DNA of 39,927 nt from Acidimicrobiia bacterium. Its GTDB lineage: Bacteria > Actinomycetota > Acidimicrobiia > UBA2766. The stretch lies in assembly GCA_020850945.1 (NCBI GenBank), contig JADZDR010000028.1, positions 1 through 39,927 on the forward strand, read 5' to 3'. A program made the translations under genes and the position numbers. The number at the start of each line of letters is the position of its first letter. Positions within the stretch are counted from its first letter, which is position 1. The notes below the pieces were generated by a model. It saw only the letters and a list, made by a program, of their open reading frames with translations, had not been told where the DNA came from and did not search any database. This document shows, piece after piece, positions 2,202-30,495 of the stretch.

Positions 2202-3311
2202 TTGGGGGTCCCTGCGGATCGGCACGATCTGACAACCGTTGACAAGGGCGCGCTCGGCGATGTCGACCCGGAGAAGCACAGGGCCCGCCTGCAGGGCTGG
2301 CTGGTGGAGAGGCTCGCGCCGGCGACCGACGTCGCGCTCGGCCCGCTCGCGGCGCCGGGCGAGAGCGGCTTTTCGAGCGAGACGATGCTCCTCGACGTCG
2401 CGTGCACAGAGCCGAGCGGGGAACGGCGTCATGAGCGTTTCGTCGCGAGGGGCAGACCGAGTGGCCATCCCGTGTTCCCCGACTACGACCTCGAGATGCA
2501 GGCACGCTGCATGCAGGCCGCCGGTGAGGCAGGTGTGCCGGTACCGGAGGTTCTCTGGTGGGAGCCGGACGAGTCGGTGATCGGCACCCCCTTCTACGTC
2601 ATGCGCCACGTGGCGGGTGACGTACCCGCCGACAATCCGCCCTACACGACGTGCGGCTTCCTCTTCGACGCGTCGGCTCGGGAGCAACGCCGGGCATACG
2701 AGTCGGCCCTTCGGGCCGTGGCGGCCGTCCATACAGTGGATCGCGACGCGGTCCGCCCCCACGTCGATCGACCCGAGTTCGGCACGGGCGGCCTCGAGCA
2801 GGAGTTGGGGCGGTGGCGCCACTTCTTCGACTGGGCCGGTGCCGGCCGTGCGAATCCCACGTGTGAAGCCGCCTTCGCCGCTCTCGCCGCGAACCACCCC
2901 GCCGATGCACCGCAAGTGCTCTGCTGGGGTGATGCCCGCCTCGGAAACGTGATCCTGCGCGATTTCGAGGCCGTGGCCGTCCTCGACTGGGAGATGGCCC
3001 ACCTCGGTTCACGGGAGAGCGACGTGGCCTGGTTCCTCTACTTCAACAGGTTCTTCTCGGATGCTCTCGGCGTACCGGATCTGCCGGGATTCCCGGATAC
3101 GGCAGAGGGCATCGCGATCTACGAGGAGTACGCGGGGGTCGAGTTGCGTGACATGGACTGGTGGATCGCCTGGGCCTGTCTCCGCTACTGCGGCACACTC
3201 ATCCGTGTCACGCAGCGCATGGCGCAGGCCGGTGTCGAGATCCCCGGGTTCACCGAGACCGACAACTTCGGCACCCGCCACCTCGCCGCCCTCCTCGATC
3301 TCCCTCGGTGA
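2202..3311 (+). CDS. Phosphotransferase family protein (APH / choline-kinase fold)
   Basis: A 369-residue protein-kinase-like small-molecule phosphotransferase of the APH family. The catalytic-loop motif appears as WGDARLGN (D244, N249), and the metal-binding LDWEM motif follows (D262, E264). Spacing and order match APH-type enzymes that in actinobacteria often sit near acyl-CoA and lipid genes. The substrate cannot be read from sequence. I chose a TTG start at 2202 because GGGGAGAGGG lies directly upstream at Shine-Dalgarno distance. A GTG at 2157 in the same frame is the alternative and would add 15 residues with no APH similarity. The much longer open frame upstream is antisense to GH20. 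The gene ends 24 bases before the convergent CrtC-like gene. Confidence 0.85.
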   Translation: MGVPADRHDLTTVDKGALGDVDPEKHRARLQGWLVERLAPATDVALGPLAAPGESGFSSETMLLDVACTEPSGERRHERFVARGRPSGHPVFPDYDLEMQARCMQAAGEAGVPVPEVLWWEPDESVIGTPFYVMRHVAGDVPADNPPYTTCGFLFDASAREQRRAYESALRAVAAVHTVDRDAVRPHVDRPEFGTGGLEQELGRWRHFFDWAGAGRANPTCEAAFAALAANHPADAPQVLCWGDARLGNVILRDFEAVAVLDWEMAHLGSRESDVAWFLYFNRFFSDALGVPDLPGFPDTAEGIAIYEEYAGVELRDMDWWIAWACLRYCGTLIRVTQRMAQAGVEIPGFTETDNFGTRHLAALLDLPR

Positions 3312-3335: not shown

Positions 3336-4325
3336 TCATACAGGCAGACGGTGCGTCTCGAGCCAGCCACAGAACGGGGGGCCCGCGTCGTCAGGTGTGA
3401 GGCGCACGAGATGCCGGCGGTACTCGGTCTGCCGTGGCGGCTGCTGCGTGTGATGGAGATCGATCGCATGCGCCGACACCGTGCCGATCGAAGCCGCGAA
3501 GACGGCAGCCTCCCCCGCGCGGACCTCCACGCGGCCGCGGGCCGCGCCCGGTCCGAACGTGCCGGGGTCGAGTTCGACGTCGAGGCTGACGTCGGTGAGG
3601 TCGTGTGAACGACCGTGCACGTGGAGGTAGCCGATGCGGAACGGCTCGAGGTCGCCGATTCGGACTTCGACGCACTGCAGGCTGCGTTCGCCCGCATTGG
3701 CGGCGAGGAAGGTCCAGTCCATGTCCCAGATGCGGGGGCCCCACGAGTGGTCACGTTCGCCGTGACCGGCGAAGCTGATCTCCTGTGCCCCCACGCGCTG
3801 GTGGCCCCGGACGGAGACGGGCTGCTCGAAGCGCCTCGCGTCGTAGTGGTCGGAGCTGTGCCCCTCACCCGTGTGCTGCCCCGTCGAGTGGGGGACACCG
3901 GAGGCGTGCACGTCGAGGTCGACTTCCATGCCCACGACACGTCCCGCCGTGTCCCCGGAGAGGATCCGCCCGAAGCCCGACACCCGCAGCCGGCCCTGCT
4001 GGAGGGGAGTCGTGGGGAACCATTCGAGAGAGAGGCCTGGTGTGTCGAGGGCCACGTCCGGCCGGCGCACGAGGGAGAACGGGAGATGAGGCCGCTCCAT
4101 CCCCGCCCACGCCCCGTCCTGCCAGAGAAAGAGCCAGAGCCACGCCCGGTCCTGTCCGGGGAACACGCCGAGACGGCAGTGGCCGGCCACGTTCCCGTCG
4201 GTGTCGTACCAGTCCCAGAACCAGGACTCGTTCCACCACGTCGTCTGTGGGTCGTAGCGGTGGAATCCCTCGTCCACCGCCTGGATGCCGAACTGGGTGT
4301 CGTCTTCCGGCGTGGGCTCGTCCAT
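3336..4325 (-). CDS. CrtC/AttH lipocalin-like protein (hydroxyneurosporene-synthase-like)
   Basis: A 329-residue protein rich in Trp and beta-strand sequence, with early motifs WWNESWFWDWYD, a central region GERDHSWGPRIWDMDW (about 190-205) and a C-terminal beta segment. The WGPR/W pattern and overall length resemble the two-lipocalin CrtC/AttH fold (carotenoid hydratase-like and related DUF7064/7065-type proteins). Hydratase activity is not established, and neighbours give no carotenoid context. It converges with the APH-like gene, and such genes are often found together in actinobacterial lipid or steroid loci (from memory). The ATG at 4325 follows a G-rich ribosome site. A 44-bp palindrome ends 28 bases upstream of it. 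Confidence 0.6.
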   Translation of the reverse strand: MDEPTPEDDTQFGIQAVDEGFHRYDPQTTWWNESWFWDWYDTDGNVAGHCRLGVFPGQDRAWLWLFLWQDGAWAGMERPHLPFSLVRRPDVALDTPGLSLEWFPTTPLQQGRLRVSGFGRILSGDTAGRVVGMEVDLDVHASGVPHSTGQHTGEGHSSDHYDARRFEQPVSVRGHQRVGAQEISFAGHGERDHSWGPRIWDMDWTFLAANAGERSLQCVEVRIGDLEPFRIGYLHVHGRSHDLTDVSLDVELDPGTFGPGAARGRVEVRAGEAAVFAASIGTVSAHAIDLHHTQQPPRQTEYRRHLVRLTPDDAGPPFCGWLETHRLPV

Positions 4326-4353: not shown

Positions 4354-4397
4354 TCTGGGTACCTGAGCGGCGATATATCGCCGCTCAGGTACCCAGA
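4354..4397. repeat. Perfect 44-bp palindrome, copy 1 of 2
   Basis: Arms beginning CTGGGTACCTGAGCGGCGAT meet at a central TA without a loop; every base from 4354 to 4397 pairs. The inner 42 bases (4355-4396) are identical to 11111-11152. Each arm carries GGTACC, and the centre is GATATATC. It lies between the etfB stop and the CrtC-like start, 28 bases from that ATG. It could form a cruciform or mRNA hairpin, serve as an operator, or be a dispersed REP-like element. Confidence 0.95.
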
Positions 4398-4438
4398 CCG
4401 TGTGTGGCCCCTCGGGCGAGAGGGTTCGGTACGGCGTT

Positions 4439-5242
4439 TCAGCCGGAGAGCTCGGCGATACGCGCGACGAGAGCCCGACCGGCGGCGCGGGCGTCCTCGC
4501 CACCGACGATCTCACACGTGCGCTCGAGCTTCGGTTTCACGAGATCCACGAGCACGGGGCCGAGGTCTGCCTCCGAATCCCGGAGATCCAGCTCGGCCGC
4601 TTCCAGGATCCGGATCGGCTTGCGCTTGGCAGCGGCCAGAGCGGGGAAGTCCACGGGGCCCGGATCCCCGATCTCGCTCGACACCGTCACGACCGCCGGC
4701 AGCCCGCACTCGATCGTCTCGATCCCTCCTTCGGTGAGACGGTCGACCTCGACCGTGCCGAGGCCGGCCGCACGGATGCCGACGGCGACCGTGACGAGGT
4801 CGATGCCGAGAATCCCCGCGAGGAGAGGTCCGACTACCCCGGCGTTCGTGTCGGCAGCCTGCCGGCCCGTGAGAACGAGGTCGCAGTCCCCCATCTCTCC
4901 GACGAGGGCTGCGAGTCGCCGGGCGGTGGTCAGGCCGTCGACGAGGCGCCCGACCTCGTCTGCCGTGCGCAGGGCCAGGACCCGGTCCGCTCCGGACGCG
5001 AGGGCTTTGAGGAGGAGTGGTTTGGCAGGACGCGGTCCCACTGTCAGCAAGGTCACGTCGGCGTTGGGCGTCTCGCCCTCTCCGCGCAGGTCGGCTGCCG
5101 CCTTCAGGGCGTTGGCGTCGTACGGGCTCAACACCTCCGGCGTACCGGAGGCGGTCACGGTGAGACCCTCACCCACGCGGAGCAGCTCCGCCGGCGCCTC
5201 GGGATCGAGGACCTGCTTCGCACAGACGGCGATTCTCAGCAT
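4439..5242 (-). CDS. etfB: Electron transfer flavoprotein, beta subunit
   Basis: A 267-residue ETF beta (FixA-type) subunit. The N-terminus MLRIAVCAKQVLD, the SPYDANALKAAADL helix, the GRQAADTNAGVVGP nucleotide-binding loop (about 127-140) and the LPAVVTV...AAAKRKPI signature region all fit the family. It binds a second nucleotide (AMP in classical ETFs, FAD in bifurcating ones) and passes electrons together with EtfA. It is the last gene of the operon and overlaps etfA by 7 bases, so it is probably translationally coupled. Whether this ETF is classical or bifurcating cannot be settled by eye. Confidence 0.93.
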   Translation of the reverse strand: MLRIAVCAKQVLDPEAPAELLRVGEGLTVTASGTPEVLSPYDANALKAAADLRGEGETPNADVTLLTVGPRPAKPLLLKALASGADRVLALRTADEVGRLVDGLTTARRLAALVGEMGDCDLVLTGRQAADTNAGVVGPLLAGILGIDLVTVAVGIRAAGLGTVEVDRLTEGGIETIECGLPAVVTVSSEIGDPGPVDFPALAAAKRKPIRILEAAELDLRDSEADLGPVLVDLVKPKLERTCEIVGGEDARAAGRALVARIAELSG

Positions 5243-8951: not shown

Positions 8952-10297
8952 TTCCCACTCCTTGTCCAGAGCCGGCCCGGCGCGAGGATCCCGGCCGGGT
9001 CGAGGATCGTCTTCACGAGGTCCAGGGTTCGGACCGAGTCGGGACAACGTGCATAGACGCTCGAGGCGGCAGCCGGTGCGGGCCGCGAGAAGAAGGCGCC
9101 GGCGGCGGCCAGCTCTCGCGTCAGGTCCGGCATGTCGGCGTCCAGGCCGGCGTGCAGATCGGTGGTCGAGTCGTCGAGGAACGCCGTGATCTCGACGTGG
9201 CAGGAGCGACCCTGGTCGAGTGGTTGGATGTAGGTCCCGACGGTCGCCGGATCCACACCCAGGCCCACCCAGCGCTCCCGCGCGATCGCGGCGAGGCGGG
9301 GGGCGGTGTCGAGCGAGGAGAGGAAGAACACGTCCCGGAACGCGCCCGGGACCTTCCACCGATGGTCGGAGGTCACGCCGAGAGCAGCGTCGAGGAAGCC
9401 GGCGGGAAGGGCGTCGGACCCGGCCGCGAGGCCGACGCCGGCCGCGGCGGCGATGGCCGCGGCGTCGTGGGTCTGGACCTCGAGGCTCTCCTCGGGCAGG
9501 AACGGCAGGCTGCCGATGCGGACGAGCGCCGTCCACTCCGCGACGGGTTCGATGGGCGATCCGACCGCCTGTCCGAGGGCCCGCAGCGCGGCGGTGTCGA
9601 AGATCGAGATCTCGTCACAGATCCGCACGCGGGTCACGCCGTGCACGAAGTCCGCGACAGGTCCGAGCTCGTCCGCGCAGACGGCATGATCCGTCGTGAG
9701 CTGCGGCCGCACCTCGAGGCGGATCGACCCCCACGTGGCCACACCCATCGTGCCCTGCGACCCCTGCACGACTTTGAGGAGGTCGGTCTGGGCAGGTCCG
9801 AGCGGATTCTTCTGATGCATGCCGGCGGCCCACTGCTCTTCCAGCGTGTCGCCGGGACCCGCGGCACCGCCCGTGCGGAAGCGGTCACCCGTTCCGAACC
9901 AGAGCTCGGCACAGAGCAGGGGGTCGGTCATGTCCCAGTGGTACTTGGGCACGAGAGGTGGCTCGCGATCGAGGAAGGCGGCGAGAACGGACTTGCCGGG
10001 TGTCGGAAGGAGAGGATGCGTGACCCGGAGTCCCTCGGGTTCGAGGCGCTGCTCGAGACCGGCGAACGTCACGCCCGGCTCGACGATCGCCACCCTGTTG
10101 CGACGATCGACGACGACGGTCTCGTCGAGGGTCGAGAGGTCGAGGAGTATCTCGTCTCCACCGGCGGCACCCCGGCCGATGCGGGCCGGCCCGGTCGACG
10201 AACGCGGCACGACCGGTGTGCCGTCTCGCCCGGCCGCGCTGAGGATCGTTCCGACGTCGGTGGGCGACTTGGCACGGATGTGGGTTGCGTCAGCCAC
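8948..10297 (-). CDS. FAD-binding oxidoreductase (GlcD/GlcE-like)
   Basis: A 449-residue PCMH-type FAD protein. The FAD-binding half covers about 1-190 (PRSSTGPARIGRG, RVAIVEPGVTFAGLEQ, KVVQGSQGTMGVATWG). The C-terminus DLVKTILDPAGILAPGRLW is the classic end of glycolate/D-lactate dehydrogenase-type oxidases. It is shorter than GlcD (about 500) and closer to GlcE in size. It probably oxidises a 2-hydroxy acid or similar substrate together with the CCG Fe-S protein, or is a structural FAD subunit. The GTG start at 10297 overlaps the end of tetR by 8 bases, so the whole set is probably read from one promoter upstream of tetR. Confidence 0.85.
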   Translation of the reverse strand: MADATHIRAKSPTDVGTILSAAGRDGTPVVPRSSTGPARIGRGAAGGDEILLDLSTLDETVVVDRRNRVAIVEPGVTFAGLEQRLEPEGLRVTHPLLPTPGKSVLAAFLDREPPLVPKYHWDMTDPLLCAELWFGTGDRFRTGGAAGPGDTLEEQWAAGMHQKNPLGPAQTDLLKVVQGSQGTMGVATWGSIRLEVRPQLTTDHAVCADELGPVADFVHGVTRVRICDEISIFDTAALRALGQAVGSPIEPVAEWTALVRIGSLPFLPEESLEVQTHDAAAIAAAAGVGLAAGSDALPAGFLDAALGVTSDHRWKVPGAFRDVFFLSSLDTAPRLAAIARERWVGLGVDPATVGTYIQPLDQGRSCHVEITAFLDDSTTDLHAGLDADMPDLTRELAAAGAFFSRPAPAAASSVYARCPDSVRTLDLVKTILDPAGILAPGRLWTRSGK

Positions 10298-10952
10298 GTC
10301 CGTCCTCCTTCCTCGGTGTGGCCGCCTCGCGGAGCTCGGTCAGGCCGACCGCGACGAGGCTCGTGCGCACCATCGTCACGAGCATGTCGACCTCCGCCTC
10401 CTCCCCGTCGATCTCCTGCGCGAGGAGGAGGCCGTCGGTGAGGACGAGTACGAATCGGGCGAGGCGTCGGTACGCGGCCTCGACCGCGTCGCTGCGGTCG
10501 AGGCCGAGCAACTCGGCGAGACGGCGGGCGAGCAGCTCCCGGGCGCGGGTGCGCACGCGGCGCACGCTCTCGCGCACGGAGGGGTCGGGGTTGCTCCGGT
10601 CCAACCCCGTGAGGAGCATGAGGCGCAGGATCTCGGGCCGGCGCCGAATCGAACCGACGAGGGCGAGGAGGGCGTCATCGAGGGTGGTGCCCTCGCCGCG
10701 GGGGACTGCCATCTCGAGCTCGTCGATCCACTCCGAGGCGGTCTCCTCGACCACTTGCGCGAGGAGCCCCTCCTTGCTGCCGAAGTGCCAGTAGATGGAG
10801 GTCGGGGGCAGGCCCGTCTCGGCGCAGATCGCCCCGATCGGCGTGGCGGCATATCCTCGCTCGGCCATGAGGGCCCTGGCCGTATCGAGGATGCGTGCCC
10901 TCGAAGCTGCACCCCGCCCCGAAGGCGTGCGTGTTGCTGTCGCTCGTGCCAC
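10290..10952 (-). CDS. TetR-family transcriptional regulator
   Basis: A 220-residue repressor. The N-terminal helix-turn-helix spans about 17-63 (SRARILDTARALMAERGY, then PPTSIYWHFGSKEGLLAQVV, a typical TetR recognition helix). The rest is the helical ligand-binding domain. It is the first gene of the minus-strand oxidase/ETF operon and overlaps the next gene by 8 bases. It therefore probably represses itself and the operon until a substrate-derived ligand binds. A 15-bp tandem repeat 25-54 bases upstream of its GTG start is the likely operator. Confidence 0.92.
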   Translation of the reverse strand: MARATATRTPSGRGAASRARILDTARALMAERGYAATPIGAICAETGLPPTSIYWHFGSKEGLLAQVVEETASEWIDELEMAVPRGEGTTLDDALLALVGSIRRRPEILRLMLLTGLDRSNPDPSVRESVRRVRTRARELLARRLAELLGLDRSDAVEAAYRRLARFVLVLTDGLLLAQEIDGEEAEVDMLVTMVRTSLVAVGLTELREAATPRKEDGRG

Positions 10953-11109: not shown

Positions 11110-11153
11110 ACTGGGTACCTGAGCGGCGATATATCGCCGCTCAGGTACCCAGT
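11110..11153. repeat. Perfect 44-bp palindrome, copy 2 of 2
   Basis: The inner 42 bases (11111-11152) are identical to 4355-4396, with perfect pairing and no loop. The outermost pair is A/T here and T/A in copy 1, so the flanking base differs but is still complementary. It sits in the divergent region between tetR and the ABC1-kinase gene and ends 23 bases before the kinase ATG, almost the same offset as copy 1. Confidence 0.95.
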
Positions 11154-11176
11154 TGGAGTGTGAGAGGGACCGGACC

Positions 11177-12559
11177 ATGGCGAAGAAGAAGTCCGTGAGC
11201 ACAGGGCGCGTCGGGCGGGCGCGACGCGTGGGTACGTTCGGAGCCGGCATGGGGTCACGGCTCGCGTGGGCGGGGATGCGCAGTGCGGGACGTTCGGACG
11301 AGCACAAGGCGGAGGTCCTCGCGGACTTCCACCTGCGCACGGCCGAGCAGATGCGCGCGGTGCTCGGGACCATGAAGGGTGCCGCCGCCAAGCTCGGCCA
11401 GATGGCGTCCTTCATCGACTCGGCCATGATCCCGCCCGAGTTCGCCGACCTTTACCACGAGGTCCTCGCCGAGCTGCGCGACGACATGCCGCCCATGACC
11501 TACGACGAGCTCGCCGAGATGTTCGAGCGTGACCACGGCGGGCCCCCCGACGCCGTGTTCGAGGAGTTCGACCCCGAGCCGATCGCCGCCGCCTCGATCG
11601 GGCAGGTGCACAGTGCCCGCCTCTTCGGCGGGGATCCCGTGGTCGTGAAGGTCCAGTACCCGGGGATCGACAAGGCAATCATGAGCGACCTCAAGAACGC
11701 GAAGGCGTTCATGTGGCTCCTCCCCGTCTTCGCACCCGGCCTCGAGGCCGGACCCCTCGTGAAGGAAACCGAGCGCGCGCTCCTCGAGGAGCTCGACTAC
11801 CGGCGTGAGGCCGCGCATCAGGAGCGCTTCGCCGCCGTTTACCGGGGTCATCCCTTCGTCGTCGTGCCCGAACCCGTGCTCGAGCTCTGCGGTGCCCACA
11901 CGCTGGTCTGCGAGGACGTGCGAGGCACACGCTTCGACGACTTCGTCGCGACAGCGGACGCCGCGGATCGCAACCGGGCGGCGGAGATCATCTTCCGGTA
12001 CTCCTTCGGGACCCTCTACCGCTTCGGCTTCTTCAACGCCGACACGCATCCCGGCAACTACGCCTTCCGTGAAGACGGCAAGGTCGTCTTCTACGATTAC
12101 GGCGCGGTCAAGCAGGTCTCGGCCGACGACTGGCGACGTTTCGTCGGCATGACACGGCCCCTCATGGAGGGCGACACACAGCTCCTGTTCGAGGAGTGCG
12201 TCGCCAACGGCTTCGTGCGCCGCCCCGACAAGGTCGAACCGGAGCGCCTGCACGCGTGGCTCGACCTCGTCGCGGGCCGCATGCTCCGCACGGACGGCGA
12301 TGTCACGATCACACGCGAGATGGTCGGTGAGACCGTCGCGTCGACGACCGACCCCCTCAACGACTGGTACTCGGTGACGAAGTGGCTGAACGTGGACCCC
12401 GAAGCCCTCCTGATCGGACGCATGCAGATCGGGATCATGGCGGTCCTCGCGAAGATGGACGCCACGGCGAACTGGCACAGCATCGTGCGCGAATGGGTGT
12501 ACGACGAGGTGCCGACGACGTCGCTCGGCCGTACGGATGCGGACTTCTTCTCGGGGTGA
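11177..12559 (+). CDS. ABC1/AarF/UbiB-family atypical kinase
   Basis: A 460-residue UbiB-fold protein. Visible family motifs are KLGQ (K72-Q75), the Ala-rich loop AAASIGQVHSA (137-147), the VAIK-like lysine K158 in VVVKVQYPG, the catalytic loop ADTHPGN (288-294) and DYG (307-309) for DFG. In other bacteria these proteins support isoprenoid-quinone synthesis or lipid homeostasis through ATPase activity. Substrates here are unknown. I prefer the ATG at 11177 (GAGAGGGA upstream) to the in-frame TTG at 11153, which falls inside the palindrome. The last four bases overlap the start of the next gene. A second ABC1 kinase begins to appear at the right edge of the window. Confidence 0.9.
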   Translation: MAKKKSVSTGRVGRARRVGTFGAGMGSRLAWAGMRSAGRSDEHKAEVLADFHLRTAEQMRAVLGTMKGAAAKLGQMASFIDSAMIPPEFADLYHEVLAELRDDMPPMTYDELAEMFERDHGGPPDAVFEEFDPEPIAAASIGQVHSARLFGGDPVVVKVQYPGIDKAIMSDLKNAKAFMWLLPVFAPGLEAGPLVKETERALLEELDYRREAAHQERFAAVYRGHPFVVVPEPVLELCGAHTLVCEDVRGTRFDDFVATADAADRNRAAEIIFRYSFGTLYRFGFFNADTHPGNYAFREDGKVVFYDYGAVKQVSADDWRRFVGMTRPLMEGDTQLLFEECVANGFVRRPDKVEPERLHAWLDLVAGRMLRTDGDVTITREMVGETVASTTDPLNDWYSVTKWLNVDPEALLIGRMQIGIMAVLAKMDATANWHSIVREWVYDEVPTTSLGRTDADFFSG

Positions 12560-23943: not shown

Positions 23944-24936
23944 TCAGGCGAGGCGGAGGAGCCAGTCGTCGGATTCCGGGTCACGCTCCATCTCGACGAG
24001 CCCGCGGGCCCGGGCGGCCTTGCAGAACTGGATGAAGCTCCCGTAACCGAAGCGCTTCTCCGAGAAGTCGGCGCTGTGACGGCGGATCAGGTCCTTCAGC
24101 CCCGTGAGCCGGACCGGTTCCTCCTTCTCGACGACGGAGCGGAGGAGGGCAAAGGCGGCCTCCTCGTCCTTCGTGCTCTCCGGGAACGTCACCTCGGGAT
24201 CGCCGTGGGACGGACCCTCGGAGAGGGCGATGGTGTCGGTGTCGGCGAGATGCGCGAGGAGCTCCCCGAATCCGCGGAATCCGTGATCCGCCTCGTTGAA
24301 CGTCGGGTCCTTGCGCAGGATCGCGCGCTTGAGCGTCGACGCGAGCACAGGTCCGGGCGCGCTCTGCACGAGGCCGGCCAGCGTGCGGGCGACGAGCCGC
24401 TCGAGATCACCGCTGTCCGCAGCGGGTGCGGCTGAGCCGTTGTCGGGCGGTGTCGCGTGCGGCTCTGCGTCCACGAGCCGTTCGTAGAAGAAGAACTCGT
24501 CGCAGGCCGGTGGGAGCAGACGGGAGGTCGCGGCGGCGATCCCGAAGCCGATCACGCTCCGGTTGAGCTCGCGCAGCTTGTGCACGAGCGGAGTGAAGTC
24601 GCTGTCGCCGCTACCGATGACGAACGTCGTGATGTAGGGGCGCTCGTAGCAGAGCTCGATCGCGTCGACGGCGAGTTTGATGTCGGCGGCGTTCTTGCGG
24701 ACGGCACCCGTGCGTTGAGGGATGTCGATCAGCTCGACGCTGTGGTCGGTGAGCGCCTGTCGATCCGCGGCGAAGAGGGTCCAGTCGGCGTATGCCCTCC
24801 GGTAGACGACGCGCCCCCTCTCGGCGAGGACGTCGACGACCGGCTCGAGGTGGAAGGTGCGGCCCCCGAGTTGCTCGCGGGCGCCGATGGCGAGGTTCTC
24901 GTGGTCGATGAACAGGGCGATCGGTTCTTCCTGCAT
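23944..24936 (-). CDS. NYN-domain ribonuclease-like protein with two OST-HTH/LOTUS domains
   Basis: A 330-residue protein. The NYN (PIN-like, LabA/DUF88) nuclease domain covers about 5-155, with acidic residues D11 (ALFIDHEN), D85 and D91 (ADIKLAVDAIEL), and D111 and D113 (IGSGDSDF), the expected metal site. A linker of about 25 residues follows. Two OST-HTH/LOTUS modules then appear: about 180-240 (LASTLKRAILRKDPTFNEADHGFRGFGELLAHL) and about 262-325 (LTGLKDLIRRHSADFSEKRFGYGSFIQF). The domain order resembles eukaryotic MARF1/Limkain-type RNA regulators. It probably binds and cuts structured RNA; the target is unknown. The ATG at 24936 gives an intact first strand. Confidence 0.85.
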   Translation of the reverse strand: MQEEPIALFIDHENLAIGAREQLGGRTFHLEPVVDVLAERGRVVYRRAYADWTLFAADRQALTDHSVELIDIPQRTGAVRKNAADIKLAVDAIELCYERPYITTFVIGSGDSDFTPLVHKLRELNRSVIGFGIAAATSRLLPPACDEFFFYERLVDAEPHATPPDNGSAAPAADSGDLERLVARTLAGLVQSAPGPVLASTLKRAILRKDPTFNEADHGFRGFGELLAHLADTDTIALSEGPSHGDPEVTFPESTKDEEAAFALLRSVVEKEEPVRLTGLKDLIRRHSADFSEKRFGYGSFIQFCKAARARGLVEMERDPESDDWLLRLA

Positions 24937-25047
24937 GACCCATCATGGCACCGCGACCCCGCGTTCTCGCGTCAGGGCCACGTCATGCGCCGGTCAGAGG
25001 CTTGTGGCAGGCTTGCGGGGCGACAGGACGAAGAGAACAAAGGGGAC

Positions 25048-28000
25048 ATGGTGTACCTGAGGCGGTTTCTTCTCATCGCGTGTGGGGTCCTGACCGGTGC
25101 GGTCCTTCTTCTCGTGTGCGCGGCGCCGGCAGACGCGGACGGTCTCGACCTGACTTGCAGCACGCGGACAGGTCCGGTTGCGGACATCGACACGTCCACC
25201 GAACCCGAAGTGCTCGATGGCGTCGACGTCGTGTTCAGGGGCCGGGCGCCGGCATCCGTCCCGATTACGGGCGCCGTCGACGTCGATCCGGAGACGGGTG
25301 ACAAGCTGTTCACGCGTACGTGGCGTCCCACGTCGGGGGGTACCTTCTACGTCGACTTCCTCGCCGCGTCGGGTGTCGAGATGAGCTTCCTCCTGCGTCC
25401 GCGTGTGCACGCCGGATGGGGCGGGCCGGTCCCGTTCAGCATGGGCCTGGCAGACCTCTTTCGCGAGAACTTCGCGCTGCCCGACGACTTCCGCACGAAC
25501 CCGTTCCTCCCGCCCGACCAGGTCGGTGTGGTCGGACTCGACGTGACCGCCTTCGCCTCGGAAGCCCTGGCCGCTCTACCCGAGGGGATCGAAGGACGCC
25601 TCGAGGCGCACGTCCGCTTCCACCGCAGCGACGGTACGTGGACGACGACACGTATCGGCGTCGGTCTCGACTCGCGGGCGGCCGGGGCCGACCTGCCCCG
25701 CCGCAGTGACCTGGGAGTGGGTTTCAAGCGAGTATGGACGGGCGGGGCCGGCACACCGACCGACTACATCGTCGTCGGCCAGCACTACACGAGCTGGACG
25801 GAGGGGACTCCCAAGCCTGGTGTCGGTGTCCGCGTCGACGTCGACGAGGTGCTGAGCGGCCCGGCTGGCGAGACCGTGCGTCCCACGGTCGACGTCGACC
25901 TCGACTACTCGAACGTGCCCGAGAACATGGCCGTCGGTGTGCGCAGCCGGTGCCGTCCGTGGGACCCGACATTCAGCTCGACCGGACACATCGCCTGGAA
26001 CCATTCGGGTCTCACGCCGGAGGCCGCGGCTGCGACCACGATGGACTTGAGGGTCAAGACGGGGGTCGAGGCGGGACTCCCCATCCGCATCGCGGAATAC
26101 GATCCGATTCTCGGGGGGGGATGGCGTGACACCCTTGCCGACGAGACAGACGTCGACGCCACGATCGTGGGCCTACCCGAGCGCGTCGACTGGATCATGC
26201 ACCCCGACTCGATGGGCATCACGCGGAGCACCGACGTGACTCCGGACGTGATCCTGAACCACGCCCAGCTTGCCCAGGACGATCCCCTCGTTTCCGATGA
26301 CAGGCCCTTGTACGTGGAGGGTGCCGTCACCGGCCTACCGGCGCACTCGCGCGCGCAGGCCGGGTTCGCCGCGGACGGGAGTCTCGAGACCCTGGATCTG
26401 CAGTTCTTCGAGGTGGCGTGCACGGAGGGCGCTCCCGAGGACGATCTCTTCCCGCCCGGTCCGCAGGGTTGCCGTCGTACGGATCGCGTGGGCATACCCG
26501 AGGCGCACGTGCTTGCACAGAACTGGCTACCGGACGACCTCATCGCCCAGGACGCCTGGCACGGGATGGCGTCGCCGCCCGTCAACGAACCCCAGTACGC
26601 GTATTACGCGAGCCGCGATACCGCCGACGGGGTGCCCGTCGAACTGTGGCGGGGCGGTGCACGCCTCGTGGGCCTCCGGCAGGCCGCCTTCGACTCGTCG
26701 GAGGGGGGAGAGGTCCGGTTCTACGTGGACCGCGACGAGAGCCATGTCGACGTTCCACCCTGGTCTCCGCCGGGGGACTGCATCCCACTGCCGCCCTACT
26801 GGGAGTGCCCGCCCTGGTTCCCGCCCGATCCCGACCCCGCCCAAGTCGTCATCGACGTGGACGGACGTACGGCGGACGACGAGGTCGTGAATGCGGGAAC
26901 GCGCGTGGAGGCGAGCGGCAGGGTCCCCGACCTGCCGGCTGCGCTGCGCCTGGACGTGGAGTCATCCGCCTTCGTCACGAAGGCCATGTGGTGGGCGACG
27001 AGCGACGTCGAGATCGACAGTGGGCTCGTCCGGGCCACGCTCCCCGGCCCCGCGGCGACACTTGTCGACGCGGCATTCGAGGTCGGGAACGGCGGCGCCG
27101 GCCTGTCCCCGGCGGGGGAGGTCGTCATCGAACAGGAGACGGTGCGGATACCGAACCAGGTCTGCCTGATCATCTTCGGCAGGCGCATCTGTCGGCCGAC
27201 AGGCGGATCGACGTACCAGCCGACTGGCTGGCGCCACGTCTCCTTCGACGTGCCGGCCACACCGGACGACGGCTTCCCGGCCGTGGAGGTGCCTTCCGAG
27301 GTGATCCACGCGGCGAGGCTGAAGGCTGGAGTCGTCGCCACGACCAGGGCCGGGCGCCTCGGTGGTACCCGCATCCGAGCCTGGGTCGACACCTCACTCG
27401 CGCCGGGCGCGGTCGTGCGCTGGAACGAGGCCGACGGCAGCCTCGCCCATGTCGAAGGATCTTTCTGCGAGGAGGGGGACGAATGCGGGAACTTCTTCCA
27501 CGGCGTGGTCGTGTCCGGGCCCCCCGAGATCCGGGAGTGGGAGCGGCTGATCGACAAGCCCGCGCTTCCCGAGGCACCGGCGGCGGTTGCCGACGTGATG
27601 CCTGCCTTCGACGACACGTGGCTGTACACAGACGGCGAGTCAGGGGTGCGGGCAGTCCTCGCGGGTCGTGACGACGAGTGGGGGCTCAACCGCTGGGGTG
27701 TCGAGGCCTTCGTCGAGTCGGTCGCCGCCTTCGAGTACACGTCCGAGGGCAACGACGTCCGCGTCGAGCTCGCCGACGGAGCGGACGGCACGCAGGCGTT
27801 CAACGTCGACCTGCTCGACGCCACACGGCGCCCACCTGTCTCGTTCGGCCCGCAGTACATCCCCTTGATGGTGGACGCCCGCATCGACCGCCTGCCCGAG
27901 CAGATGCGCCTCCGCATGGACGCCTCGGACACCTCGGCTGCCGCGGACACCCCGTGGATCTGGGTGAACACCGAGGACACCGGTATCACCGATGCGGCGG

Positions 28001-30495
28001 ACGTCGACTGGGACACAACCGACGCACCCGGCACACGCCCGAGGCTCACCGGCCTCGTACGCATGGGCTACACGTCGATGCTGGCGGGGATGGCCGGCAC
28101 GGAGCGTCCCTCACCCGTTCGATCTGCGTTCGGTGCCGACGTGTGGGCGAAGTTCGCCTCCTCGGGCCCGTACGCCGTCGACGTCGTCGCGGACGTCGAG
28201 GTCCCCCGCCATGTGGCGATCTGGAAACCGAGCCTGGCGGAGTGCAACGCCAGCCAGAGCCGTGACCGCATCGCCGCCTGCCAGGACCGCTCCCTCTACG
28301 AGATGGACGAGTGGCAGGAGGTCCGCGCGCTCTTCAAGACGACGAGTGCGACCCTCGGCGACCTGAACGTGAACGCGCGGGTCGCGGGAGAGGACTCCGA
28401 CTACGGGGTCGAGGGAACGGTCGGACGAGTCCCGGGCCACCTCGACGCGACCGTGCGCCTCACCCAGAACAGGCGGCTTCCCTGGCTCGAGGCCACCCTC
28501 GCTCTCGACGCGAGCGCACCCCTCGGGGACGTACAGGCGGCGGTGACCGACAGGACAGACCCCAGCCCGGCCGCCTACCGCATCGCGGACGGGACGAGCC
28601 GACCGACGCCCAATTATGCGGCCGTCCTCCGCGACGTGCCCGCCGACTTGAACGTCTCGGCGCGGGTGTTCGGTCTCGAGGAGCGCCTCACGCCCGACCT
28701 CCCAGCGGACTCACCCTGTCGGGCTTCGAGCGGCGACCTCGGCTATCTGCATGCGGTGCTCGACCTGGGCGGAGGGGTGTCCGACGTCGACATCGACGTG
28801 CAGGAGACCCAGGCCGGCCTGGCAGCCGATCTGCGGGCTGACGCCCCCGTGTCCGGCTGGGTGAACGCCCGGATCGACGACCTCGTCTTCTGCGAGAGCG
28901 ACTACGAGGACAAGTCGTCCTTCCAGATCCACATGGCCGACGGCGGCGTTTTCGGATCGCGCTACGCGCAGCTCGTACCCCCTGTGCTGCTCTTCGACCT
29001 GATCCTGGGTGCCTTGGGGGAGCTCGTCCTCGCATCCGATGCCGACATCGACGTCAACCTGGACGCGGACCTCCCTATCTACTTCCAGTTCGACCGGGTG
29101 ACGGAACTGCGGGTGGCGCAGAACGTCACGACGCTCTCGGTCGACGAACGCCACGGGGGGGAAGGTGAGCCGACGACGATCGCCGTGCGGCAGCGTTCGC
29201 TGCCGCACGAGGAGCCCGTCGAGGTCGACGGAGCCTGGTTCCGGAGCAGGGACGTGCGTTTCCGCTCGACCGAGTGGGGCCTCGAGGACTTCGACATTCG
29301 GAACAACGTCACCGATTCCTTCGCAGTCGTGGGTCTGCATCCATGGCAGCGCTGCGTCGACAACGGGGACGGCGACTCCGACGACGACGAGCACCCCTGT
29401 TTCACGGGCGGGTACTCACGCGACAACGTGGGCACCGTGGCCGACTTCCCCACCCGCGAGGATCGGGGTAGCGAATTCATCTCCGCCGATATCGTCATCG
29501 ACCCTGTCTTCTCTCCCTCGAATCGGACAGAACTGCAGGACGAAGACGACGGCCTCGTGGAGCCAGGCCTCATCTTCTACGGGAAGGTCGCCGAACGGGC
29601 GGTGCCGGCGGAGGCGGACTGGTTCGTCGCGCCCGAGCTCGTCGCGTCGCGGACACGGACGGCCACACCGACGTTCACGTGGCGGCCTGACGCGTGGGCC
29701 GAGTATCCGCCCTTCACCCTCGCTTCCAACTGCTCCCCGATCGCCGAGACGAGCGATGCGGTCGGCGCAGACGGCACGACTTACGGTCTCGTTCCGATGT
29801 GCGCGCCGATTGTCTGGGGCTACGACACCCCGGCAGCCCGAGCCCAACTCTTCGGCGGATTCGGTCTCACGGCCGAGTTCACCAACGGCACCCCGCGTTG
29901 GGTCGTAGCCCTCCCCGACCCCGTCGGCTTCGATCCGGCGGGGAACGACACGTGCGAGCTGAACCTCGACAGGAACTGCCGCGTGCGCACGCGGATCGCA
30001 CCCCAGGGGAACGGGTCGGTGCAGGTGACGTTGTCCACGGAACGCCCCTTCAACGTGTTCGGGTTGAGGGTCTGGAGGTCGATCGGCACGAAGTATGCAT
30101 GGCTGGACGCCTCGGGCCACCCGGCACACCATCTTGCCCAGGCTGCCGAGTTGCCGAACCTGTTCGCAGCCTCGTTCCGAGACGCGAACGACCGGAGCGG
30201 TGTCACGGCGCTCGACCCCTGCACGATCGCGACGTGGGCGTGCGCGCCCCCACCCGCGGATCACAGCGTGCAGTGGGTGTTCGGCGACGGCGAGGTGTCG
30301 GACCCGAGTTCGGCGGCTCCCACGCCCGTCGGGCACGACTACCCCTCGACCCGTACGCAGCAGTCGTATTACGGCGCCCTCGTACTCCTCGACGCCGAGG
30401 GGGAGGTGGCGGGCAGCGCACCGTTCATCGTCAAAGCCGGAGGCTGGTCGATCTTCGACGGGTCGTGGGGCTGGCCCTGGCCCCTTGGCGGTTAG
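25048..30495 (+). CDS. Very large secreted repeat protein of unknown function
   Basis: A 1,815-residue exported protein. The signal peptide (residues 1-31, RRFLLIACGVLTGAVLLLVC core) probably ends at ADA/DG. The mature part is almost all beta-type, acidic sequence. A short motif of Pro followed by alternating hydrophobics (GLPERVDW, DLPAALRL, RLPEQMRL, RVPGHLDA, DVPADLNV) recurs near residues 178, 291, 377, 431, 630, 950, 1129 and 1198, suggesting repeated domains. A Pro-rich linker lies at about 572-598, an Asp-rich likely calcium loop DNGDGDSDDDE at 1438-1448 and a PKD-like end (VFGDGEVSDP) at about 1744. No sorting signal or anchor is visible; the C-terminus is Trp-rich. ATG 25048 follows AAAGGGG. 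The frame upstream is antisense to the NYN gene. Confidence 0.8.
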   Translation: MVYLRRFLLIACGVLTGAVLLLVCAAPADADGLDLTCSTRTGPVADIDTSTEPEVLDGVDVVFRGRAPASVPITGAVDVDPETGDKLFTRTWRPTSGGTFYVDFLAASGVEMSFLLRPRVHAGWGGPVPFSMGLADLFRENFALPDDFRTNPFLPPDQVGVVGLDVTAFASEALAALPEGIEGRLEAHVRFHRSDGTWTTTRIGVGLDSRAAGADLPRRSDLGVGFKRVWTGGAGTPTDYIVVGQHYTSWTEGTPKPGVGVRVDVDEVLSGPAGETVRPTVDVDLDYSNVPENMAVGVRSRCRPWDPTFSSTGHIAWNHSGLTPEAAAATTMDLRVKTGVEAGLPIRIAEYDPILGGGWRDTLADETDVDATIVGLPERVDWIMHPDSMGITRSTDVTPDVILNHAQLAQDDPLVSDDRPLYVEGAVTGLPAHSRAQAGFAADGSLETLDLQFFEVACTEGAPEDDLFPPGPQGCRRTDRVGIPEAHVLAQNWLPDDLIAQDAWHGMASPPVNEPQYAYYASRDTADGVPVELWRGGARLVGLRQAAFDSSEGGEVRFYVDRDESHVDVPPWSPPGDCIPLPPYWECPPWFPPDPDPAQVVIDVDGRTADDEVVNAGTRVEASGRVPDLPAALRLDVESSAFVTKAMWWATSDVEIDSGLVRATLPGPAATLVDAAFEVGNGGAGLSPAGEVVIEQETVRIPNQVCLIIFGRRICRPTGGSTYQPTGWRHVSFDVPATPDDGFPAVEVPSEVIHAARLKAGVVATTRAGRLGGTRIRAWVDTSLAPGAVVRWNEADGSLAHVEGSFCEEGDECGNFFHGVVVSGPPEIREWERLIDKPALPEAPAAVADVMPAFDDTWLYTDGESGVRAVLAGRDDEWGLNRWGVEAFVESVAAFEYTSEGNDVRVELADGADGTQAFNVDLLDATRRPPVSFGPQYIPLMVDARIDRLPEQMRLRMDASDTSAAADTPWIWVNTEDTGITDAADVDWDTTDAPGTRPRLTGLVRMGYTSMLAGMAGTERPSPVRSAFGADVWAKFASSGPYAVDVVADVEVPRHVAIWKPSLAECNASQSRDRIAACQDRSLYEMDEWQEVRALFKTTSATLGDLNVNARVAGEDSDYGVEGTVGRVPGHLDATVRLTQNRRLPWLEATLALDASAPLGDVQAAVTDRTDPSPAAYRIADGTSRPTPNYAAVLRDVPADLNVSARVFGLEERLTPDLPADSPCRASSGDLGYLHAVLDLGGGVSDVDIDVQETQAGLAADLRADAPVSGWVNARIDDLVFCESDYEDKSSFQIHMADGGVFGSRYAQLVPPVLLFDLILGALGELVLASDADIDVNLDADLPIYFQFDRVTELRVAQNVTTLSVDERHGGEGEPTTIAVRQRSLPHEEPVEVDGAWFRSRDVRFRSTEWGLEDFDIRNNVTDSFAVVGLHPWQRCVDNGDGDSDDDEHPCFTGGYSRDNVGTVADFPTREDRGSEFISADIVIDPVFSPSNRTELQDEDDGLVEPGLIFYGKVAERAVPAEADWFVAPELVASRTRTATPTFTWRPDAWAEYPPFTLASNCSPIAETSDAVGADGTTYGLVPMCAPIVWGYDTPAARAQLFGGFGLTAEFTNGTPRWVVALPDPVGFDPAGNDTCELNLDRNCRVRTRIAPQGNGSVQVTLSTERPFNVFGLRVWRSIGTKYAWLDASGHPAHHLAQAAELPNLFAASFRDANDRSGVTALDPCTIATWACAPPPADHSVQWVFGDGEVSDPSSAAPTPVGHDYPSTRTQQSYYGALVLLDAEGEVAGSAPFIVKAGGWSIFDGSWGWPWPLGG

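Follow-up and report, generated by a model that had tools for sequence, protein, structure and literature searches.

The window, by which we mean the whole stretch of 39,927 nucleotides analysed, carries a perfect 42-bp palindrome, CTGGGTACCTGAGCGGCGATATATCGCCGCTCAGGTACCCAG, that is base for base the same at two places (Table 1). Each copy is extended to 44 bp by outer bases that differ between the copies and are complementary within each, exactly as a sequence-only reading of the window had described, and a search allowing up to three mismatches per arm agreed with that reading in returning no third copy in the window. Copy 1 lies in the gap of a tandem minus-strand gene pair, behind the 3' end of one gene and next to the start of the other, and copy 2 occupies the divergent gap between a TetR-family gene and an ABC1 atypical-kinase gene. 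Since the latter gap is divergent and copy 2 stands so close before an ATG, a plain terminator does not suit it. The left flank of copy 2 does not match the outward consensus described below. Elsewhere in the window, an open frame of 2012 aa (24457-30495, plus strand) has no Pfam match.

Table 1. Coordinates of the palindrome copies, their flanks and neighbouring genes in the window, and of second-family palindromes at another locus of the source genome (last row)
Feature	Position	Strand	Remarks
Palindrome copy 1	4355-4396	.	44 bp at 4354-4397 including outer T-A pair
Palindrome copy 2	11111-11152	.	44 bp at 11110-11153 including outer A-T pair
Copy 1 right flank, ACCGTGTGTG	4397-4406	+	matches outward consensus W S N G N G Y G N G (51 copies)
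Copy 2 right flank, TTGGAGTGTG	11153-11162	+	matches outward consensus except at +2
ETF-domain gene	4439-5242	-	stop codon 42 bp from copy 1, which lies behind the 3' end
DUF7064/7065 gene	3336-4325	-	start 29 bp past copy 1
ABC1 atypical-kinase gene	11177-12559	+	ATG 24 bp after copy 2
TetR-family gene	10290-10868	-	divergent, upstream of copy 2; possible start of the open frame at 10952
Second-family copies around second AbiEi-nuclease gene	L320:1435-1481, 2460-2508, 2522-2570		family also in L236, L237, L240 and L221

The draft genome from which the window comes (G000; 3.91 Mb in 97 contigs, 98% complete) holds the palindrome at 55 places with up to three mismatches, 43 of the 50 matches listed being exact, and a degenerate pattern finds 57 copies, against none for the reversed-pattern control. 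This copy number is far beyond chance, and it is a minimum because several contigs end at a copy. The sequence-only reading had held that the pair could not be chance and belonged to a dispersed REP-like element, and had named a total of only two copies genome-wide, together with absence from relatives, as grounds for doubting dispersal; the 57 copies uphold it on each point. With genes called by a simple home-made script in these draft genomes, 26 of 51 G000 copies fall in tandem gaps, 13 in convergent and 8 in divergent ones, 3 at contig ends and 1 in-frame, this last one probably in a miscalled frame; all the others are clearly intergenic. Gene 3' ends lie within 80 bp of 41 of the 51 copies, where 36% of intergenic bases would be so placed (p 8e-11), and the same holds for 36 of 46 copies of a related palindrome in another genome of the family, G003, again against 36% (p 6e-9). 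At about nine G000 copies, the adjacent gene ends on the TGA of an arm itself (CTGGGTACCTGA, read L-G-T-stop).

Within G000 the core is nearly invariant. An uncompensated core change is found in 8 of 51 copies, and the centre of one distinct copy is altered symmetrically. Because the interior varies so little, and mostly without compensation where it does, recent copying explains the identity of the palindromes in this genome. Outside the core, the flanks of the 51 copies, read outward on either side, follow W S N G N G Y G N G as a degenerate consensus. Left and right flanks pair more often than their composition predicts at +1 (88% versus 60%, z 5.5), +2 (63 versus 39) and +3 (50 versus 28), with no pairing beyond composition further out. 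Together with some 10 conserved bp to either side, the 42 bp thus make up a dyad-symmetric site of about 62 bp. Direct repeats of 2-9 bp are no more frequent around the copies than in shuffles, so that the target-site duplication expected of a MITE of a DDE insertion sequence is missing. No T-run follows the hairpin in the flank consensus, as it would in an intrinsic terminator, and short tags are rare within 6 nt of the foot (GTAG, CTAC and CGTC in 1 of 50 G000 copies each; GTAG/CTAC in 0 of 46 and CGTC in 3 of 46 G003 copies). Two copies, L025:3041 and L025:5358, have flanks that are clearly related at about 20-30 bp and diverged in the 10 bp beside the core, as if a copy-bearing segment had been duplicated. 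Incomplete third arms (CTGGGTCCTGAGCGG-like) stand 14-15 bp outside a full copy at L020:1-42 (the start of contig C35) and L032:2940-2979; they may be remnants of the element or a longer form of it.

Relatives were sought among the class genomes, including three other members of the family (G001, a species in the genus of G000; G002; and G003, of another genus). The exact 42-mer is found neither in GTDB contigs nor in any other class genome tried, same-genus G001 included; a 17-mer gives 67 single, unpaired matches in GTDB contigs, which is consistent with chance, and a half-arm search of viral contigs (IMG/VR) gave none. A de novo palindrome search, however, uncovered in G003 a perfect 42-bp palindrome (TTGGAGCANNNNGCGGCCACA plus its complement) that has 13 of 21 arm positions in common with the G000 palindrome. 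The degenerate pattern finds 40 copies of it there (45 at three mismatches; 45-46 overall) and none in 393 other genomes, including G001 and G002. Although positions 9-12 are hypervariable in G003, 33 of the 46 copies there are still perfect palindromes. The two arms covary: both sides are changed in 46 cells, where shuffled data give 13.4 (0 of 500 shuffles; 28 distinct rows), and no slid register comes near the true one. Pairing has thus been conserved over longer times, either by selection on the fold or by a copying step that derives one arm from the other. The earlier proposal that pairing itself is under selection is supported in part: the outer bases pair at +1 to +3 and the arms covary in G003, while the rare interior changes in G000 mostly lack compensation.

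Many G003 copies are extended on one side by 26 bp in which part of the arm recurs; this extension points away from the neighbouring stop codon, which typically lies 5-11 bp off the other side. The arm on the extension side often reads TCGG and the opposite one TTGG (L288:2975-3016, L289:3028-3069, L272:2999-3040), a T-G wobble on the sense strand of the gene ending beside the element. Only a handful of host genes are common to the G000 and G003 copies, and there is no sign of inherited copy positions between the two. Neither an insertion event nor a clean empty site came to light; the intergenic DNA of G001 has diverged too far to be aligned, and the gap that holds copy 1 is shorter in G001.

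Some of these observations would suit hairpins that act in transcripts and are retained for that role, terminating in both directions or stabilising mRNA 3' ends, with the palindromes' link to a nuclease being incidental. The 3'-end bias, the ratio of convergent to divergent gaps (31:11), the typical start of G003 hairpins 5-11 nt after the stop codon and the wobble pairs on the mRNA-sense strand all agree with such a role. However, one 42-bp sequence present 57 times is untypical of terminators, the T-run is absent, some copies (window copy 2 among them) lie in divergent gaps, and the nuclease link, described next, is statistically strong across the phylum, which together make this explanation very unlikely.

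A partner was sought among genes enclosed by close pairs of palindrome copies. One such pair in G000 (C35:117300 and 118360, 1,060 bp apart) encloses a single gene of 299 aa (L317/L022; C35:117.33-118.23 kb) with AbiEi_4 and MTES_1575/DUF559 domains, and a pair in G003, 1,089 bp apart, likewise encloses a single gene, of 311 aa, with the same domains (L293/L314). A nuclease-domain search of G000-G003 found two stand-alone genes in G000, the one on C35 and another at C32:84545 (L320), the latter flanked by copies of a second palindrome (CACGTGGGCGTACTCAACCACGCT...) that is itself dispersed in G000; these are the two G000 nucleases whose flanks were viewed, and a further two, at C93:35058 and C64:60042, fall outside that set. 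The second family (CACGTGGGCGTACTC...) occurs at about 20 places in the 1 Mb searched, often as doublets about 60-70 bp apart. Stand-alone nuclease genes in G001 and G003 lie beside or between yet other repeats, each dispersed in its own genome (at 4 to 46 sites of the DNA searched; shuffled palindromes 0), with a single hairpin side visible at L322 and a (tandem) repeat on one side only at L323. The bracketing palindromes enclose no AbiEii toxin gene, and the nuclease was not found in plasmids or phages. The sequence-only reading had advised looking for a RAYT-type transposase encoded elsewhere; Y1/RAYT transposases (PF01797) have no match in G000-G003, so the partner is not a RAYT.

The AlphaFold model of the C35 nuclease is confident (pLDDT 93). 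By structure comparison, the N-terminal two-thirds correspond to the AbiEi antitoxin 6y8q and the C-terminal domain to the catalytic domain of the homing endonuclease I-Bth0305I (3r3p, TM 0.74); a profile search with the nuclease also matched 3hrl and 3r3p. All of 35 sequences compared have D233 and H250, and at least 90% have E244, D246 and D259. The protein is predicted to join a DNA-binding domain like that of AbiEi to a nuclease of the EDxHD/Vsr type that resembles I-Bth0305I. AbiEi proteins bind palindromic or inverted repeats, including in their own promoters (PMC11062541, PMC7319586), and the I-Bth0305I homodimer covers a target of nearly 60 bp (reviewed in PMC3943268), so that the 62-bp dyad fits putative binding by a dimer of the nuclease.

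Bracketing was then examined across the phylum with a profile built from nine nucleases, which matched 81 of 150 genomes; AbiEi/DUF559 matches reach 15 per genome in the phylum. At the 30 best loci, one per genome and, as best matches, no random draw, flanks of up to 300 bp were compared (E 1e-4), and the same repeat was found on both sides of 18 of 30 nuclease genes versus 0 of 223 control genes of similar length (Fisher p 6e-20); the first sighting was post hoc, and this test was made on previously unviewed genomes, one of the 18 bracketed loci (L324) being the G000 L320 locus again. When the upstream flank of one nuclease locus was paired with the downstream flank of another, 16 of 870 pairs matched. 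Many of the bracketing units are hairpins, such as a perfect 48-bp palindrome in L345, and the one in L332 (CTGGGTAATCGAGCGCCACATATCGTGGCGCTCGATTACCCAG) resembles the window palindrome. Similarity between nucleases and similarity between their repeats show no overall correlation (Mantel r 0.08, 431 of 5000 permutations) and go together only among the closest pairs.

The interpretation that we favour, with a probability of roughly 0.6, is that the palindrome is a REP-like, probably non-autonomous mobile repeat whose cognate enzyme is the AbiEi-EDxHD nuclease on C35. It draws on the dispersal of the copies, their 3'-end bias, the arm covariation in G003, the bracketing of the nuclease gene in G000, G003 and across the phylum, and the predicted fold. 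The most likely mechanism would be that the nuclease provokes the copying: a nuclease dimer would bind the dyad-symmetric site via its AbiEi half, the homing-endonuclease half would cut or nick DNA, and repair or hairpin-primed synthesis would then copy the palindrome to new intergenic sites, new copies being tolerated chiefly behind gene 3' ends. The whole palindrome-nuclease-palindrome unit might occasionally be copied too. Whether this extends to a widespread class of selfish elements across Actinomycetota, in which free-standing AbiEi-EDxHD homing-type nucleases rather than transposases spread palindromes, with one nuclease family per palindrome family, we regard as an even bet. Several results count against the favoured interpretation: neither insertion events and clean empty sites nor target-site duplications were found, nuclease and repeat similarity do not correlate overall, and a repeat on both sides is missing at the threshold used in 12 of the 30 phylum loci. 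A nuclease alone, besides, is not known to act as a transposase. Moreover, as AbiEi-type proteins autoregulate through inverted repeats, the copies flanking the nuclease gene could be operators.

Taken further, that last objection becomes an alternative in which the AbiEi half binds palindromes that are autoregulatory operators at the nuclease gene and protected or regulatory sites elsewhere, for instance sites that a host-defence nuclease spares or senses, so that selection would act on binding. The documented binding of AbiEi to inverted repeats in its own promoters (PMC7319586, PMC11062541) and the dyad symmetry of the flank consensus lend themselves to this. However, copies lie behind genes and not in promoters, repeats stand behind the nuclease gene too, the presence of the palindrome is patchy across genomes, and in G003 positions 9-12 are free to vary provided that the arms match, which a site bound as duplex would not need; we consider it decidedly unlikely. 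A different division of labour, which we hold to be unlikely, would make the solo palindromes cleavage sites and the bracketed nuclease gene a homing element that invades them by break repair using palindrome homology, the solo copies having spread by some other route. The relationship of the nuclease half to a mobile-intron homing endonuclease and the presence of one and the same site at either end of the gene argue for it, but 57 sites face a single bracketed nuclease of the family seen, cutting at 57 places would be toxic unless the sites were masked, and the spread of the sites is left unexplained.

Finally, an unrelated transposase or recombinase that escaped detection might move the palindromes, with the nuclease units as passengers or targets. 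This has the least to recommend it, and we think it highly improbable: rve-type transposase domains are present in G000 (3 matches) and the families searched are a sample, but target-site duplications and a Y1 transposase are missing, and the same nuclease type is bracketed in G000, in G003 and in many other genomes. As candidate partners, the three rve-type matches were set aside, none showing a link to the repeat.

On the interpretation favoured here, the arrangement appears to be a new form of the partnership already known between REP repeats and their transposases. To our knowledge, RAYTs are the only mobilising enzymes to which REP-like palindromes have been tied, and we know of no explanation for palindrome families that lack a RAYT, such as the CGTC repeats. 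REP sequences or REPINs with their RAYTs (REPtrons; PMC3733652, PMC3116915) are likewise short extragenic palindromes in tens of copies per genome, positioned behind coding regions as singlets and doublets with compensated stems, and several families may coexist in a genome, each with an enzyme gene flanked by its own repeats. In contrast, the G000 palindrome lacks a loop and pairs perfectly over its 42 bp, it has neither a GTAG/CGTC tag nor a Y1 (HUH) transposase, and the bracketed gene encodes an AbiEi-EDxHD nuclease; since tag and transposase are missing, we do not file it as a member of REP/RAYT, although its organisation is similar. Nor do actinobacteria figure among the phyla in which GTAG or CGTC repeats are recorded (PMC3733652). 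The RPE-like CGTC palindromes (PMC3733652) resemble it in being dispersed without a known transposase, but only that single G000 copy has CGTC near its foot.

The nuclease has the catalytic fold and the D..ExD...H..D residues of EDxHD homing endonucleases and Vsr, but is free-standing, AbiEi-fused, outside introns and flanked by dispersed palindromes; its N-terminal two-thirds have the fold of the AbiEi antitoxins of type IV toxin-antitoxin systems, but with a nuclease domain added. A literature search of partial coverage found no description of a partnership between palindromes and such nucleases. If real, a homing-type nuclease partner would be a second route for the spread of tiny palindromes and would help to explain the abundance of AbiEi/DUF559 genes in the phylum, and a direct test would take one protein and one 42-bp oligonucleotide. 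In the fourth family member, G002 (54% G+C), long palindromes that are perfect or nearly so are also numerous and differ in sequence; examples lie at L130:10481-10526 and L137:763-804, and in L126.
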